Assembly (NCBI RefSeq): GCF_025717065.2
Contig: NZ_JAOVZO020000018.1
Span: 1,116,001-1,180,000 of the forward strand
Direction: 5' to 3'
Length of the DNA stretch: 64,000 nucleotides
Source: Tahibacter soli
GTDB taxonomy: Bacteria; Pseudomonadota; Gammaproteobacteria; Xanthomonadales; Rhodanobacteraceae
Part shown: piece by piece, positions 7,326-62,940 of the stretch
How the letters are laid out: every line of letters starts with the position of its first letter
How positions within the stretch are numbered: position 1 is the first letter of the stretch
The notes under the pieces: generated by a model
What the model was told of the DNA's origin: nothing
What the model saw: only the letters and a program-made list of their open reading frames with translations
Databases searched by the model: none
Translations under genes and position numbers: made by a program

Positions 7326-8902
7326 GACGCATGGGTCTGATCGCACTGTCGATGCTCGCGACCGCGGCGCACGCCGCGCCGACGCTGGATTCCCTTTTCG
7401 ACGAAACGTTCGCGCGCTACCGCTTGCCGGGCCTCGCGGTCGGCGTCGTCGAGAACGGCAAGGTGGTCTACGCCAGAACCGCCGGCGAAACGCGCGCCGG
7501 CAGCGGCGAGAAGATCGATGCCGACACGCTGTTCAAGATCGCCTCGAACAGCAAGGCGATGACGGCCGCGACGCTCGCGCGGCTGGTCGACGCCGGCAGG
7601 CTTTCGTGGACCGACAAGGTGACGCGGCACCTGCCGACGTTTCGCATGGCCGATCCGTGGGTCACGCGCGAAATTCAGCTGCGCGATCTCCTGATCCACA
7701 ACAGCGGCCTGCGTGCCGGCGCCGGCGACCTGATGCTGTGGCCCGAACCGAACGCGTTCACGCGCGCCGACGTGCTGGCGGGGCTCGCGTATCTCAAACC
7801 CGCGTACAGCTTTCGCTCGCGTTACGACTACGACAACCTTCTGTACATCGTCGCCGGCGAAGTCGGCGCGGCGGCCGGCGGCGCGAGCTACGAAGCGCTC
7901 GTGCGGCGCGAAGTGTTCGAGCCGCTCGGGCTCGCGCGCTGCCGCGTCGGCGAGTTTCGTCGCGACGACGTCGGCAACGTCGCGCAGCCGCATATGCGCA
8001 AGGACGACCGCAACGTCGTGATTCGCGAAGACGGCGCGGTGATTCCCGAAATCGCGTCGGCCGCGGCCGGCGGCATTCGCTGCAGTCTCAACGACATGCT
8101 GACGTGGACGCGCGCGTGGCTCGATCCGGCGACGTCCGATGCGAGGAGCGCCGGTGCAAGCGGCAAGCCGTGGCTGTCGCGCGCGCAGCGCGAGGCGGTG
8201 TGGACCGCGCAGATGCCGATGGGCCTGGGCGCGCGGCAGCGCGCATGGGACAAGGCGCATTACAGCGCCTACGGCTACGGCTGGCGTCTGTCCGACGTCG
8301 ACGGCACGCAGAAGGTGTCGCACACCGGCACGCTCGCGGGCATGTATTCGGTGCTGACCTTGCTGCCGGAAAAGAACGTCGGTTTCGTCGTGCTGATCAA
8401 CGGCGACGGCGGCGAGGCGCGCACCGTGCTCAACCAGGCGCTGGTCAAGCGGTACAGCGCGCCGGACGAAGGTGTCGACATCGCGAAGCTCGCCGACGAG
8501 CTGGCGCGCGATCGCGGGCCGGCGGCGGCGCAGAAACCGACGGAGGGCAAGCGCGAACCGGTCAGGCCGCGCGATGCGCGCGCGTGGACCGGCGTGTACG
8601 AGGATGCGTGGTTCGGCAGCGTGTCGATTTGTCCCGAAGGCCGCAAAGTGATCTTTGCGGCGCAGAAGTCGCCGCGCCTGAAAGGGGCGGTGCTGCGCGT
8701 CGGCGAGCGGCTGCTGGTGGACTGGGACGACGCGAGTGTCGATGCCGAGCCATGGCTCGATTTCACGGCCGCGGACGAAGCGCAGCCGATGACGCTGGCG
8801 TTGTCGCACGTCGATCCGGAAGCGGATTTCAGCTACGACTATCCGGATCTCGCGTTCAAGTGGGTGGGGGCGTGCAAAGCGTCGCGGCGAACGTCGCGCT
8901 GA
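7322..8902 (+). CDS. Exported serine hydrolase of the beta-lactamase class C / DD-peptidase family
   Basis: A 526-residue protein starting at the ATG that overlaps the lysA stop codon. It has an N-terminal signal peptide (MGLIALSMLATAAHAAP). The beta-lactamase fold carries the active-site serine motif S75-N-S-K78, Y170-D-N as the YxN motif, and HTG in place of KTG (SHTGTLAGMYS). A C-terminal region of about 130 residues resembles the lipocalin-like extension seen in many such proteins. Members hydrolyse beta-lactams, D-amino-acid peptides or esters; the HTG triad favours esterase or peptidase activity over true beta-lactamase, but that is inference. Coupling to lysA could suggest a link to peptidoglycan or D-amino-acid turnover. 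Its last 64 bases overlap a small gene on the opposite strand. Confidence 0.85.
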   Translation: MRRMGLIALSMLATAAHAAPTLDSLFDETFARYRLPGLAVGVVENGKVVYARTAGETRAGSGEKIDADTLFKIASNSKAMTAATLARLVDAGRLSWTDKVTRHLPTFRMADPWVTREIQLRDLLIHNSGLRAGAGDLMLWPEPNAFTRADVLAGLAYLKPAYSFRSRYDYDNLLYIVAGEVGAAAGGASYEALVRREVFEPLGLARCRVGEFRRDDVGNVAQPHMRKDDRNVVIREDGAVIPEIASAAAGGIRCSLNDMLTWTRAWLDPATSDARSAGASGKPWLSRAQREAVWTAQMPMGLGARQRAWDKAHYSAYGYGWRLSDVDGTQKVSHTGTLAGMYSVLTLLPEKNVGFVVLINGDGGEARTVLNQALVKRYSAPDEGVDIAKLADELARDRGPAAAQKPTEGKREPVRPRDARAWTGVYEDAWFGSVSICPEGRKVIFAAQKSPRLKGAVLRVGERLLVDWDDASVDAEPWLDFTAADEAQPMTLALSHVDPEADFSYDYPDLAFKWVGACKASRRTSR

Positions 8903-9033
8903 AGCAGACCCGGCGAACCCTCGACGGCCGCGGCGATGCGCTCGTGCGCGCGCATCGCGCGCCAGCCGATCACGAGCCACAGAACGGTGACGGCGACGCC
9001 CCAGAGCACGGCGACGACAGGGAGAAGTGTCAT
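8839..9033 (-). CDS. Putative small single-span membrane protein
   Basis: A 64-residue frame starting at ATG 9033 with AGGA about nine bases upstream. Residues 1-22 form a strong hydrophobic helix (MTLLPVVAVLWGVAVTVLWL), followed by a basic and polar tail beginning GWRAMRAHERIAAAVEG. The family is not recognised. The organisation, one transmembrane helix then a short cytoplasmic tail, is plausible for a real small protein, and the ribosome-binding site fits. It overlaps the 3' end of the convergent serine hydrolase gene by 64 bases, and part of the frame could be a shadow there, so confidence is moderate. Confidence 0.45.
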   Translation of the reverse strand: MTLLPVVAVLWGVAVTVLWLVIGWRAMRAHERIAAAVEGSPGLLQRDVRRDALHAPTHLNARSG

Positions 9034-9138
9034 GTGCGAATCCTGCGGTTGAGTGGTGCCAACCGATGGTTGCATATTCTTCCAGCTGTACGCCAAGCGT
9101 ATGGGGTGGGGTGTCGTTTTATTTTCTTGCTCTTGCTC

Positions 9139-9499
9139 GTCACCCCAGCGGACGCTGGGGTCCAGCTTTTTCTTTGTCGCTTTGTAGTTAACGCTCGGCT
9201 TTGAACAAGGCGTTTCGCTCGCTGCCGCGAGCGAGCAAAGGGGAGTTGCTTGTCCAACTCCCCCTTGCATCCCCCAAGGACACCCCGACGGCCGCGGTCT
9301 CCGGGCATCCATGCCCTCCGACTTCGCGAGCTTGCTCCGGGGTTCGTTGATGGGCCATCCATGGCCCGTCAACGAACTGCGCACATCCTGTGCGCACCCG
9401 CTTCGCGGGCTTTTCCTCCGCAATCTCGCCGCGACCGACGGGGCCCCGGGTAGAGCGGGCGGCTTCCTGCCGCCAGAAGCAACGGCAACGGCAACGGCA
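9139..9499 (+). repeat. Structured multi-hairpin repeat, copy A
   Basis: No gene is seen from 9034 to 10146; the stretch is repeats. Copy A starts with a CCCCAGCG/CGCTGGGG palindrome followed by a T-run (9143-9175). It continues with these hairpins: CGCTCGC/GCGAGCG (9216-9233); GGGGAGTTG/CAACTCCCC, loop CTTGTC (9240-9263); GGGCA/TGCCC (9303-9316); a 17-bp stem with a CC loop (9342-9377); TGCGCACA/TGTGCGCA, loop TCC (9378-9396); CCCGC/GCGGG, loop TTC (9397-9409), followed by CTTTTCC; and GGCGGC/GCCGCC (9458-9474). It ends in three GGCAAC-type hexamers. Copies B, C and D keep most of the hairpin order but change the stem bases in compensating pairs, so structure rather than sequence seems to be selected. 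Confidence 0.85.
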
Positions 9500-9523
9500 A
9501 AAAATGCGGCGATCCTCACGCTC

Positions 9524-9645
9524 GTCATCCCAGCGCAAGCTGGGATCCAGCCGTTGCTTTCGACGCCCCAAAGCTGGATTCCAGCTTGCGCTGGAATGAC
9601 GAGCTACCAACAAAGCCGTCATACCGGCGCAGGCCGGTATCCAGC
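9524..9645. repeat. Cluster of GTCATNCC...GGNATCCAGC REP palindromes
   Basis: Three short palindromic units lie between structured copies A and B: 9524-9551 (plus), 9573-9600 (inverse) and 9618-9645 (plus), each of the form GTCATNCC-stem-CAAG or CAGG-stem-GGNATCCAGC. A degenerate fourth unit is near 9750-9786. The unit at 9618-9645 is identical to one at 62048-62075. They behave like REP/BIME elements: abundant, extragenic and alternating in orientation. Confidence 0.8.
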
Positions 9646-9814
9646 TTTTCGATATCAGCAATCGTCATGTGTTGAGATCCGGATGACGGCCCGCATCCGC
9701 AGTTCACCCTTCGAGCCATTCGCCGCGTGAACGTTCGCTCCGCGTTCCTGCCTGCGCAGTCCGGCCTCTGCCGGAATGACGAGCTAAGGGAGGCGCCGCG
9801 CCTGGGCTTTCCGC

Positions 9815-10110
9815 TGTTGCCTCTGGCGGCAGGAAGCCGCCCGCTTCACCGGGGCCCCGTCGGCCGCGGCGAGATTGCGGAGGAAAGCCCGAAGGGTCGC
9901 GCGCAGGATGCGCGCGAGTTCGTCGTAGGGCCAGGATGGCCCTTCGGCGAACCCCGTAGCGATCTCGCGGAGTCGGAGGGCAGGATGCCCGGAGACCGCG
10001 GCCGTCGGGGTGTCCTTTGGGGATGCAAGGGGAATTTGGACAAGCAAATTCCCCTTGCTCGCTCGCGGCAGCGAGCGAAACGCTTTGTTTAAAGCCAGGC
10101 GAAAGCTACA
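9815..10110 (-). repeat. Structured multi-hairpin repeat, copy B (inverted relative to A)
   Basis: Copy B is related to copy A but in the opposite orientation, so A and B form a head-to-head pair around the REP cluster. In plus-strand order it has GGCGGC/GCCGCC (9825-9841); CGCGCGCA/TGCGCGCG, loop GGA (9898-9916); a long imperfect stem with loop GGA (9918-9952); GGGCA/TGCCC, loop GGA (9978-9990); GGGGAATTTG/CAAATTCCCC, loop GACAAG (10029-10054); and CGCTCGC/GCGAGCG, loop GGCA (10060-10077). Loops match copy A when reverse-complemented, while several stems differ by paired changes. The right end runs toward the tetR-type gene that stops at 10147. Confidence 0.82.
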
Positions 10111-10146
10111 AAGAGACAAAAAAGACCCGAAACAAGAGAACGACCC

Positions 10147-10779
10147 TCACCCCCCAGATCGCCCCGCATCGGCATAAACCGCCGTCCACAGAATGTGCGT
10201 CAGCGCATCGACGAGCGCCTCGACCTGCGCCGCCTTGCGCCCCCGAATCAGCTGATGACAGGCGCGCTCGAACGCCCACGTCACCACGTCGGGCGTCAGC
10301 GCCGGTACGTCGTCGCCGACGACGCCCGCGTCGCGGCGGCGTTTGAGCGCCTTGCGATTGACTTCGACCAGCGCGCGCATCATCGCCTGGAACAATCGCT
10401 CGACTTGCGGATCGTAGGCCGCCGTCTCGACGATCGCCGCCATCACCGCGTAGTGCCGGCGATACAGCCCGACGACCGCCTTGACCGTCGCGCGCAGATC
10501 GTCGCGCGTCGCGGTTTCCGGCGCATCGAGCCGCGCCGCTTCGGTGATTTCCTCTGTCACGCGCTGCATCAGCTTCGCGACCAGTTCGCCCTTGTCGCGA
10601 AAGTGCAGATAGAACGTGCCGCGCGCGATGCCCGCTTCGGCCGCGAGCTGCTCGACGCTCAGCTGCGTGAAGCTCGCGCCTTTGCCGACGAGCCGCTCCA
10701 TCGCGCGCTGCAGGTTTTCTTCGACGCTGCTGCGCCGCGCCTTGCCGCGCGTGCCCGTCGTGCGGGTTACCGATGCCAT
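10147..10779 (-). CDS. TetR-family transcriptional repressor of the Atu-like operon
   Basis: A 210-residue DNA-binding protein with the TetR N-terminal helix-turn-helix near residues 20-70 (QLSVEQLAAEAGIARGTFYL, then HFRDKGEL) and a helical ligand domain behind it. I take the start at ATG 10779 (MASVTRT). The longer frame starting at 10833 would place the start codon inside a 28-bp inverted repeat that looks like the operator. It diverges from the five-gene dehydrogenase/carboxylase operon, as AtuR does from its own operon in Pseudomonas, so it most likely represses that operon and itself and is released by an acyl-CoA or terpenoid effector. The effector is inferred from the neighbours, not from the sequence. 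Confidence 0.88.
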   Translation of the reverse strand: MASVTRTTGTRGKARRSSVEENLQRAMERLVGKGASFTQLSVEQLAAEAGIARGTFYLHFRDKGELVAKLMQRVTEEITEAARLDAPETATRDDLRATVKAVVGLYRRHYAVMAAIVETAAYDPQVERLFQAMMRALVEVNRKALKRRRDAGVVGDDVPALTPDVVTWAFERACHQLIRGRKAAQVEALVDALTHILWTAVYADAGRSGG

Positions 10780-61676: not shown

Positions 61677-62002
61677 TGGCTTTCGACAAAGCGTTTCGCC
61701 CGCCTGCCGGCGGGCGAGTCACTTTCTTCGACTGGCCGAAGAAAGTAACCAAAGAAGGCCACCCCAACTGCCGCGCCCCTCCGGGCATCCTGCCCTGCGG
61801 GGACCGCAAGCGCCCGGCGGGGTCCGCCGATGGTCCATCCTGGACCGCGGCGGACGACGCACATCCGTGTGCGTCCCCTGTCGGGCCTGATCACCGGGCA
61901 CTTGCTCGCGGCAGATGGGGCCCCGGGGAAAGCGGGCGGCTTCCTGCCGCCAGAAGCAACGGCAACAGCAACAGCAACAGCAACGGCAACGGCAACGGCA
62001 AC
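61677..62002 (+). repeat. Structured multi-hairpin repeat, copy D
   Basis: No gene is seen from 61531 to 62981. Copy D has the same orientation as copy A but is more diverged. Its hairpins are GGGCA/TGCCC, loop TCC (61783-61795); GTCCGCCG ... CGGCGGAC with an inner GGTCCA/TGGACC and loop TCC (61822-61855); GACGCACA/TGTGCGTC, loop TCCG (61856-61875); and GGCGGC/GCCGCC (61935-61951). It ends in eight hexamers. The first part (61680-61770) also contains CCCGCCTGCCGGCGGG and GAAAGTAACC, not shared with copy A. Confidence 0.75.
61955..62002 (+). repeat. (A/G)GCAAC hexanucleotide array
   Basis: Eight consecutive hexamers: AGCAAC, GGCAAC, three AGCAAC, then three GGCAAC. The matching end of copy A has three such units (9478-9495), and copy C has three in inverse (62160-62178). 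Copy number thus differs between copies of the same repeat. Confidence 0.9.
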
Positions 62003-62159: not shown

Positions 62160-62443
62160 GCCGTTGCAGTTGCCGTTGCTTCTGGCGGCAGGAAGCCGCC
62201 CGCTCTACCCGGGGCCCCGTCGGTCGCGGCGAGATTGCGGAGGAAAAGCCCGCGCAGCGGGTGCGCGCAGGGATGCGCGCAGTTCGTTGACGGGCCATGG
62301 ATGGCCCATCAACGAACCCCGGAGCGATCTCGCGGAGTTTGCGGGCATGGATGCCCGCAAACCGCGGCCGTCGGGGTGCCCTTGGAGGGTGCAGGGAGGG
62401 GTTGGGCAAGCAACCTCTCCTTGCTCGCTCGCGGCAGCGAGCG
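62160..62443 (-). repeat. Structured multi-hairpin repeat, copy C (inverted relative to D)
   Basis: In plus-strand order it has GGCGGC/GCCGCC (62184-62200); CCCGC/GCGGG (62249-62261); TGCGCGCA/TGCGCGCA, loop GGGA (62262-62281); a 36-base hairpin (62282-62317) identical in reverse complement to that at 9342-9377; an 11-bp stem TTTGCGGGCAT with its inverse, loop GG (62338-62361); GGAGGGGTTG/CAACCTCTCC, loop GGCAAG (62395-62420); and CGCTCGC/GCGAGCG (62426-62443). It runs straight into the 104-bp tandem array. Confidence 0.85.
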
Positions 62444-62940
62444 AAACGCTTTGTTCAACGCCAAGCAAAAGCTACAAAGCGACAAGAAAAAGCTGGACCC
62501 CAGCGTTCGCTGGGGTGACGAGCCAAGAGGGCGGGCGGCAGCGAGCGAAACGCTTTGTCCAAAGTCGGGCAAAAACTACAAAGAGACAGTCAAAAGCTGG
62601 ACCCCAGCGTTCGCTGGGGTGACGAGCCAAGAGGGCGGGCGGCAGCGAGCGAAACGCTTTGTCCAAAGCCAGGCAAAAACTACAAAGCGACAGTCAAAAG
62701 CTGGACCCCAGCGTTCGCTGGGGTGACGAGCCAAGAGGGCGGGCGGCAGCGAGCGAAACGCTTTGTCCAAAGCCGGGCAAAAACTACAAAGCAACAGTCA
62801 AAAGCTGTACCCCGGCGTTCGCTGGGGTGACGAGCCAAGAGGGCGGGCGGCAGCGAGCGAAACGCTTTGTTCAAAGCCAAGCAAAAGCTACAAGGCGACA
62901 ATCAAAGGCTGGATCCCAGCTTTCGCCGGGATGACCAGCC
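62431..62940. repeat. 104-bp tandem repeat array, just under five copies
   Basis: The unit begins GCGGCAGCGAGCGAAACGCT, continues through AAAGCTACAAAG and GACA, and includes a CCCCAGCG/CGCTGGGG palindrome. Unit starts repeat at exact 104-base steps (for example the AGCTG before the palindrome at 62491, 62595, 62699, 62803 and 62907). Units differ by a few substitutions, the last most. A single unit-like segment is at the end of copy B (10067-10110) and, in inverse, at the start of copy A. As 104 is not a multiple of three, the open frames running through it are not coding. Confidence 0.92.

Follow-up and report, generated by a model that had tools for sequence, protein, structure and literature searches.

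The window, the 64,000-nucleotide stretch of Tahibacter soli DNA analysed here, carries four copies of an intergenic element of about 310 nt, the fold of which is supported as being under selection while the loops of its hairpins are held constant. With moderate confidence, we interpret this element as a dispersed putative CsrA-binding RNA that is accompanied by REP-like palindromes, usually occurs as inverted pairs and favours the gaps between convergent genes. Judged by sequence comparison, it is a distant and highly multiplied relative of TwoAYGGAY, a catalogued RNA motif with a predicted function. Our finding is partly new: the multiplied branch of about 310 nt is not known to have been described, whereas binding of CsrA by the TwoAYGGAY motif had already been predicted in print.

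Copies of the element in the window

Copies A and B are housed in the gap at 8903-10146, which is bordered on the left by a PF00144 beta-lactamase family gene (7331-8902, + strand) and on the right by a TetR gene (10147-10779, - strand). Copy A extends over 9165-9492 (core 9276-9446) with its GGA strand on the - strand, and scores 142.2 bits with our covariance model R1, the seed of which includes A-type sequences. Copy B has its GGA strand on the + strand at 9805-10135 (core 9852-10017) and scores 156.4 bits. The two copies are mutually inverted, 5' end towards 5' end, and the arms at 9170-9310 and 9983-10123 are 89% complementary. A second inverted pair, at 61.7-62.5 kb, consists of copy D, a divergent subtype at approximately 61690-61990 (- strand; core 61755-61923; 115.7 bits), and copy C, at approximately 62160-62500 (+ strand; core 62212-62383; 140.9 bits). 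The preliminary description had assigned four copies to positions 9139-10110; all four exist, but C and D lie beyond that interval.

Read on its GGA strand, copy A presents H1 (9458-9474) as GGCGG-CAGGAAG-CCGCC, H2 (9378-9396) as TGCGCACAGGATGTGCGCA, H3 (9342-9377) with an ATGGAT loop, H4 (9303-9316) as GGGCATGGATGCCC, H5 (9237-9266) with the loop TTGGACAAG, and H6 (9216-9236), which is devoid of GGA. The equivalent hairpins of copy B are H1 (9825-9841), H2 (9898-9916; CGCGCGCAGGATGCGCGCG), H3 (9918-9952; AGGAT loop), H4 (9978-9990; GGGCAGGATGCCC), H5 (10027-10056; again with the TTGGACAAG loop) and H6 (10057-10077; also without GGA). Hairpins were located in copies C and D as well. All the stems quoted in the preliminary description were found in the sequence: TGCGCACA/TGTGCGCA in copy A, at the very coordinates of H2 (9378-9396), CGCGCGCA/TGCGCGCG in H2 of copy B, TGCGCGCA/TGCGCGCA in copy C (62262-62281) and GACGCACA/TGTGCGTC in copy D (61856-61875). 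The second hairpin that it quoted was likewise located, at 9240-9263 in A, 10029-10054 in B and 62395-62420 in C.

Pattern matching also placed a REP-like palindrome against the 3' end of copy A (9138-9165) and others between A and B, at 9523-9550, 9574-9601 (inverted) and 9617-9644. Directly after copy C, at 62526-62939, we observed a tandem array of units of about 104 bp, each made of an element 3' end plus a REP-like palindrome, with partial BLAST matches in the genome.

Support for selection on the fold

From 30 fetched loci of the window's genome we sampled 39 copies, or 38 if loci L002 and L003 are one and the same, and these divide into an A-like group of 31 and a divergent group of 8. 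A profile search of the fetched loci yielded 127 near-full cores; cores spanning fewer than 150 profile positions were excluded from this set and from the tree-null and strand tests. Alignment A1 comprises 43 cores, namely 42 of 57 representatives plus one truncated row from locus L001, the other 15 representatives having been omitted by hand for long inserts, short length or low score.

RNAalifold predicted 50 pairs on A1, 41 of them with compensatory change, and the H2 helix is among those that covary. The covariation score of the 43 cores was 0.625 vs 0.175 after shuffling, none of 500 shuffles scored as high, and a slid-partner control stayed at or below 0.094. Under a purpose-made null that keeps the tree (substitutions re-dealt along a FastTree tree, distinct from R-scape; 42 sequences, with the truncated row left out), 23 of 49 structure pairs reached E<=0.05, and all 23 significant pairs lay inside the structure. 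In a sample of the order, model R1 matched 39 of 151 genomes, representing 24 of 64 genera; in a sample of the class, it matched 34 of 321, from 30 of 243 genera. The window's own genome is counted in both samples. As 8 to 18 candidates were scored per genome in these multi-genome searches, the copy numbers derived from them are lower bounds. The earlier proposal that paired stem changes around constant loops reflect selection for a fold is thus borne out by the 43-core alignment and by the matches elsewhere: covariation is significant in the larger alignment, and the copies are spread over many genomes.

Hairpin tips resemble CsrA sites

On the GGA strand, the tips of the hairpins read CA(N)GGA(N)G. 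The CsrA-binding motif is described as ANGGA, with the GGA placed within hairpin loops (PMC9788540, PMC4333381). In the A1 alignment, GGA is present at H3 in 43 of 43 rows across 32 different stem arms, at H2 in 38 of 43 rows across 29 arms, and at H4 in 32 of 42 rows across 10 arms; it is absent from H4 in 10 of 42 rows and from H2 in 5 of 43. The C-G pair closing the loop is nearly invariant (39/43 in H2, 42/43 in H3) and the next pair outward is variable. H1 was found in all 39 own copies. The H5 loop is TTGGACAAG in 15 of these 39 and conforms to TTGG(A/G)CAAG in 31. A strict AYGGAY loop occurs in a minority: H2 of A1 has ATGGAT in 10 of 43 rows and ACGGAT in 3, next to AGGGAT in 14. Further references for the CsrA site are the SELEX consensus and the CsrB repeat.

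Class-level relatives retain A(N)GGA in 36 of 37 H2 and 37 of 38 H3 hairpins, and the hairpin just before H2/H3 has GGA in only 2 of 37 (low-scoring hits omitted from these counts). Several A(N)GGA-loop hairpins, a trait of Csr/Rsm-type RNAs, are present in own, related and class-level copies. The window's genome codes for a normal CsrA: it has one csrA, near-identical to solved CsrA proteins across residues 1-51. Among 70 element-bearing genomes, csrA was found in 64, and in 63 of the 64 of good quality, the one good-quality genome in which no csrA was found being G182. In the 5' flank of many own copies, the first hairpin is preceded by GTTGCC/GTTGCT-type hexamers in runs of varying length.

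Relationship to TwoAYGGAY

TwoAYGGAY (RF01731; clan CL00106, Csr/Rsm) has, like the element, two neighbouring A-N-GGA-tipped hairpins within a closed stem. The element differs in its extra GGA-type hairpins H1, H4 and H5 and in its occurrence in about 50 places, with inverted pairs and REP-like palindromes. The sources given for TwoAYGGAY are human gut, gamma-Proteobacteria and Clostridiales (PMC2864571), tandem G-A pairs in the stem are described as one of its features, and sequestration of CsrA has been proposed for it as a prediction (PMC4333381).

No Rfam family matched anywhere in the window at gathering thresholds, that of RF01731 being 43 bits. At E<=1, RF01731 has 34 matches in the window's genome, all below the cut-off (the best reaching 40.6 of 43 bits), and copies A (29.9 bits) and C (32.6 bits) are the only two of the window's four in this list. 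Comparison of the match tables put 33 of the 34 in BLAST places of the element, on its GGA strand. Above the cut-off, RF01731 gave 4 matches in 3 of 20 class-level loci scanned (L236, L238 and L241), where R1 matches overlap them on the same strand, and was detected in 10 of 70 R1-positive genomes; where both models matched an element, the strand agreed in 12 of 12 cases among the matches listed. These shared relatives connect the two families. On this sequence evidence, the window element is a branch related to TwoAYGGAY, and its below-cut-off copies are not classed as members of RF01731. The preliminary description knew of no described family with this layout. That holds for the window's genome, where no copy passes the RF01731 threshold, but not for the distant relatives that do. 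The repeat family itself is not named in the titles and abstract openings of the literature searched.

A stricter RF01731 search, with filters that miss weak matches (1 in the window's genome vs 34 at E<=1), matched 1 of 21 genomes of the window's family, and this was the window's own. RF01731 therefore misses a large related clade.

Folding strand and spread of the copies

The preliminary description considered strand polarity ambiguous, with wobble pairs favouring different strands in different hairpins. Our data lean toward the strand with GGA loops, TCC being on the opposite strand. The GGA strand gives the more stable fold in 38 of the 39 own copies and, among relatives, in 75 of 88, and G-U pairs far outnumber A-C pairs in the own-copy alignments (236 to 6 and 69 to 9, weak outer pairs counted). 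As to the wobble pairs of the hairpins themselves, the earlier caution was justified: the A1 hairpin stems have 9 G-U among 1208 standard pairs and 5 A-C, and those of class-level relatives have 8 G-U and 4 A-C. By comparison, RNase P of related genomes has 177 G-U among 2615 standard pairs and 14 A-C (27 of 30 loci, 3 short ones omitted). The G-U to A-C ratio is therefore near 2 in the element hairpins vs 13 in RNase P, and the scarcity of wobble pairs is compatible with a process at the DNA level by which the stems are kept perfect.

Such a process is central to an alternative that we regard as unlikely, although it is the strongest of those considered: the element would be a large REP/BIME-like mobile repeat spreading through single-stranded DNA hairpins, a transposase or some other protein that binds DNA would read its GGA/TCC loops, and its stems would stay perfect since DNA in hairpin form would itself be the substrate of repair or copying. 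The copy number is in line with this alternative. The match table lists 125 BLAST places for the window's genome (6.65 Mb in 23 contigs), and 50 of these span the core. REP-like palindromes adjoin many copies, and adjacent copies are arranged 5'-to-5' in 29 of 31 cases, the remaining 2 being tandem (low-scoring hits omitted). In more distant genomes, 32 of 35 adjacent cases among the matches listed are inverted (24 5'-to-5' and 8 3'-to-3'), and 3 are tandem. Presence is also patchy: 4 of 7 congeners, scored in part, have a BLAST match to the element, and genomes G004 and G007 have TetR orthologues without it, next to genes that differ from those of the window. REPs are short palindromes. Like REP/BIME sequences, the element is dispersed, intergenic and palindromic, and REP/BIME sequences often lie between convergent genes; the element differs from them as a multibranch fold of about 310 nt for which no linked transposase locus was found.

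Against a purely DNA-level repeat stand the more stable folding of the GGA strand, the G-U excess in the own-copy alignments, and the placement of CsrA-site tips in several hairpins per element and not in the neighbouring hairpin. Moreover, the palindrome pattern was found in none of the fetched stretches around the 7 Y1_Tnp hits of the window's genome, some of which are below cut-off, and plasmid and phage collections held no match to the element. Given these negative results, we infer the spread of the copies from their number and patchiness. In a separate observation, one copy with its flank is common to the first part of contig C23 and the last part of contig C15 (loci L002 and L003), and it was therefore probably the repeat that interrupted the assembly at this point.

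Gene context and possible transcription from the opposite strand

With gene calls from a simple gene finder and low-scoring hits omitted, overlap with a predicted gene exceeded 50 bases in 0 of 39 own and 0 of 85 relative copies, and the element is thus intergenic. Own gaps were convergent in 15 of 25 cases vs 9 of 44 gaps in the window (p=0.0015; low-scoring hits omitted). Moreover, the gene on the 3' side lies on the opposite strand, pointing its 3' end at the element, in 29 of 34 own copies, and its read-through would consequently carry the UCC strand. At 8890-10170, a scan for promoters of the sigma-70 type found none, and 6 terminator-like sites were present vs 1.4 expected, several of them inside REP-like palindromes.

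These features would suit an element read on the UCC strand at the 3' end of the adjacent gene, acting as a bidirectional terminator or mRNA stabiliser between convergent genes, or giving UCC-loop RNAs that pair with GGA-type ribosome-binding sites. We hold this to be improbable: the UCC strand gives the less stable fold, RF01731 matches in class-level relatives lie on the GGA strand, relatives show a weaker excess of convergent gaps (14 of 34, p=0.08), and their 3'-side gene is on the same strand in 15 of 42 copies. The three readings, that is, a CsrA-binding RNA, a mobile DNA hairpin and a 3'-end element of the UCC strand, can overlap. Long open frames do cross the GC-rich copies, but a repeated protein-coding sequence is rejected as very improbable because whole-copy open frames vary between copies (25, 17 and 12 of 39 in the three GGA-strand frames), core lengths fall into all three modulo-3 classes (18/12/8 among 38 measured), no Pfam match was obtained for four ORFs across the region, and change is compensatory pair by pair.

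Proposed function

In the CsrA-binding reading that we prefer, the GGA strand would act as a dispersed structured RNA in which up to five hairpins project from a closed multibranch scaffold, with tips of the form C-A(N)GGA(N)-G or near to it, as in a CsrA/RsmA-type site. Were a copy transcribed, it would capture CsrA dimers and titrate them in the manner of CsrB or RsmZ; alternatively, it may recruit CsrA to the transcript in which it sits. The copies, accompanied by REP-like palindromes, would have multiplied as intergenic units, for the most part in inverted pairs and with a preference, in the window's genome, for gaps between convergent genes.

Several facts count against this reading. For the known CsrA sponges and Csr RNAs, a genome usually has a single gene or a small number of genes, and some 50 copies are far above that number. 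CsrB/RsmZ/RsmY/RsmW-type RNAs share with the element several GGA-loop hairpins per RNA and a CsrA in the same genome, but they have few genes, unlike the many dispersed copies described here, for which no sigma-70-like promoter was found. The expected read-through of the UCC strand, the few wobbles, the losses of GGA in H4 and H2, the variable H5 loop, the lack of a detected csrA in G182 and the scores of the window copies below the RF01731 cut-off also weigh against it.

A further comparison is with RsmU of Xanthomonas campestris, a species of the same order as the window's genome. RsmU is described as an RsmA-binding RNA that originates from a 3' UTR and has four GGA motifs (PMC7694677). Compared by these descriptions, its four GGA motifs recall the GGA hairpins of the element; it is the processed product of one gene's 3' UTR, unlike the dispersed element.

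If the CsrA-binding reading is true, about 50 copies with up to five sites each would titrate CsrA from many places; alternatively, a mobile repeat would be exploiting CsrA. Either way, the element offers a concrete lead on TwoAYGGAY, the function of which stands in the literature, as far as the cited descriptions go, as a prediction only. It is conceivable, albeit rather doubtful, that a mobile repeat family carries host CsrA sites: through its mirror-paired units and their REP-like palindromes, dozens of CsrA decoys would be seeded across Gammaproteobacterial chromosomes, and copy number itself would tune a global regulator.

Other RNA matches and a smaller hairpin element

Several other RNA families were considered and set aside. 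RsmZ (RF00166) was not found in the window's genome and could not serve as a control set, since 1 of 274 class genomes had a match over the cut-off. RsmW gave two below-cut-off matches over copies A and B (39.8 of 52 bits), and was not among the matches of a larger scan holding the same copies, including locus L001. Matches to miRNA families at 9518-9648 are below their cut-offs and fall on REP-like palindromes, and those to rnk_pseudo and isrG are likewise below cut-off.

Some copies lie near other structured RNAs. In the window's genome, the element of locus L004 (C19:1641-2127) lies some 100 bases away from the gene for RNase P RNA (C19:2225-2604), and in G007 an element at C45:34901-35088 is within 150 bases of the same gene (C45:35237-35600). 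A 6S RNA match (91.8 bits) in G007, at L033:1027-1210, is about 290 bases from an element, and a guanidine-II riboswitch match (37.2 bits) in G011, at L037:674-723, falls in the stretch around one. Finally, the 21-letter string CGGAGGGCAGGATGCCCGGAG is shared by a different hairpin element of smaller size. This element occurs in several Gammaproteobacteria (L063, L087, L097, L103, L115, L124, L126, L146 and other loci), within or next to tRNA genes and the ends of genes. In L146 it overlaps a match to RtT RNA (RF00391) over the cut-off, and the corresponding matches in L097 and L087 are weaker.
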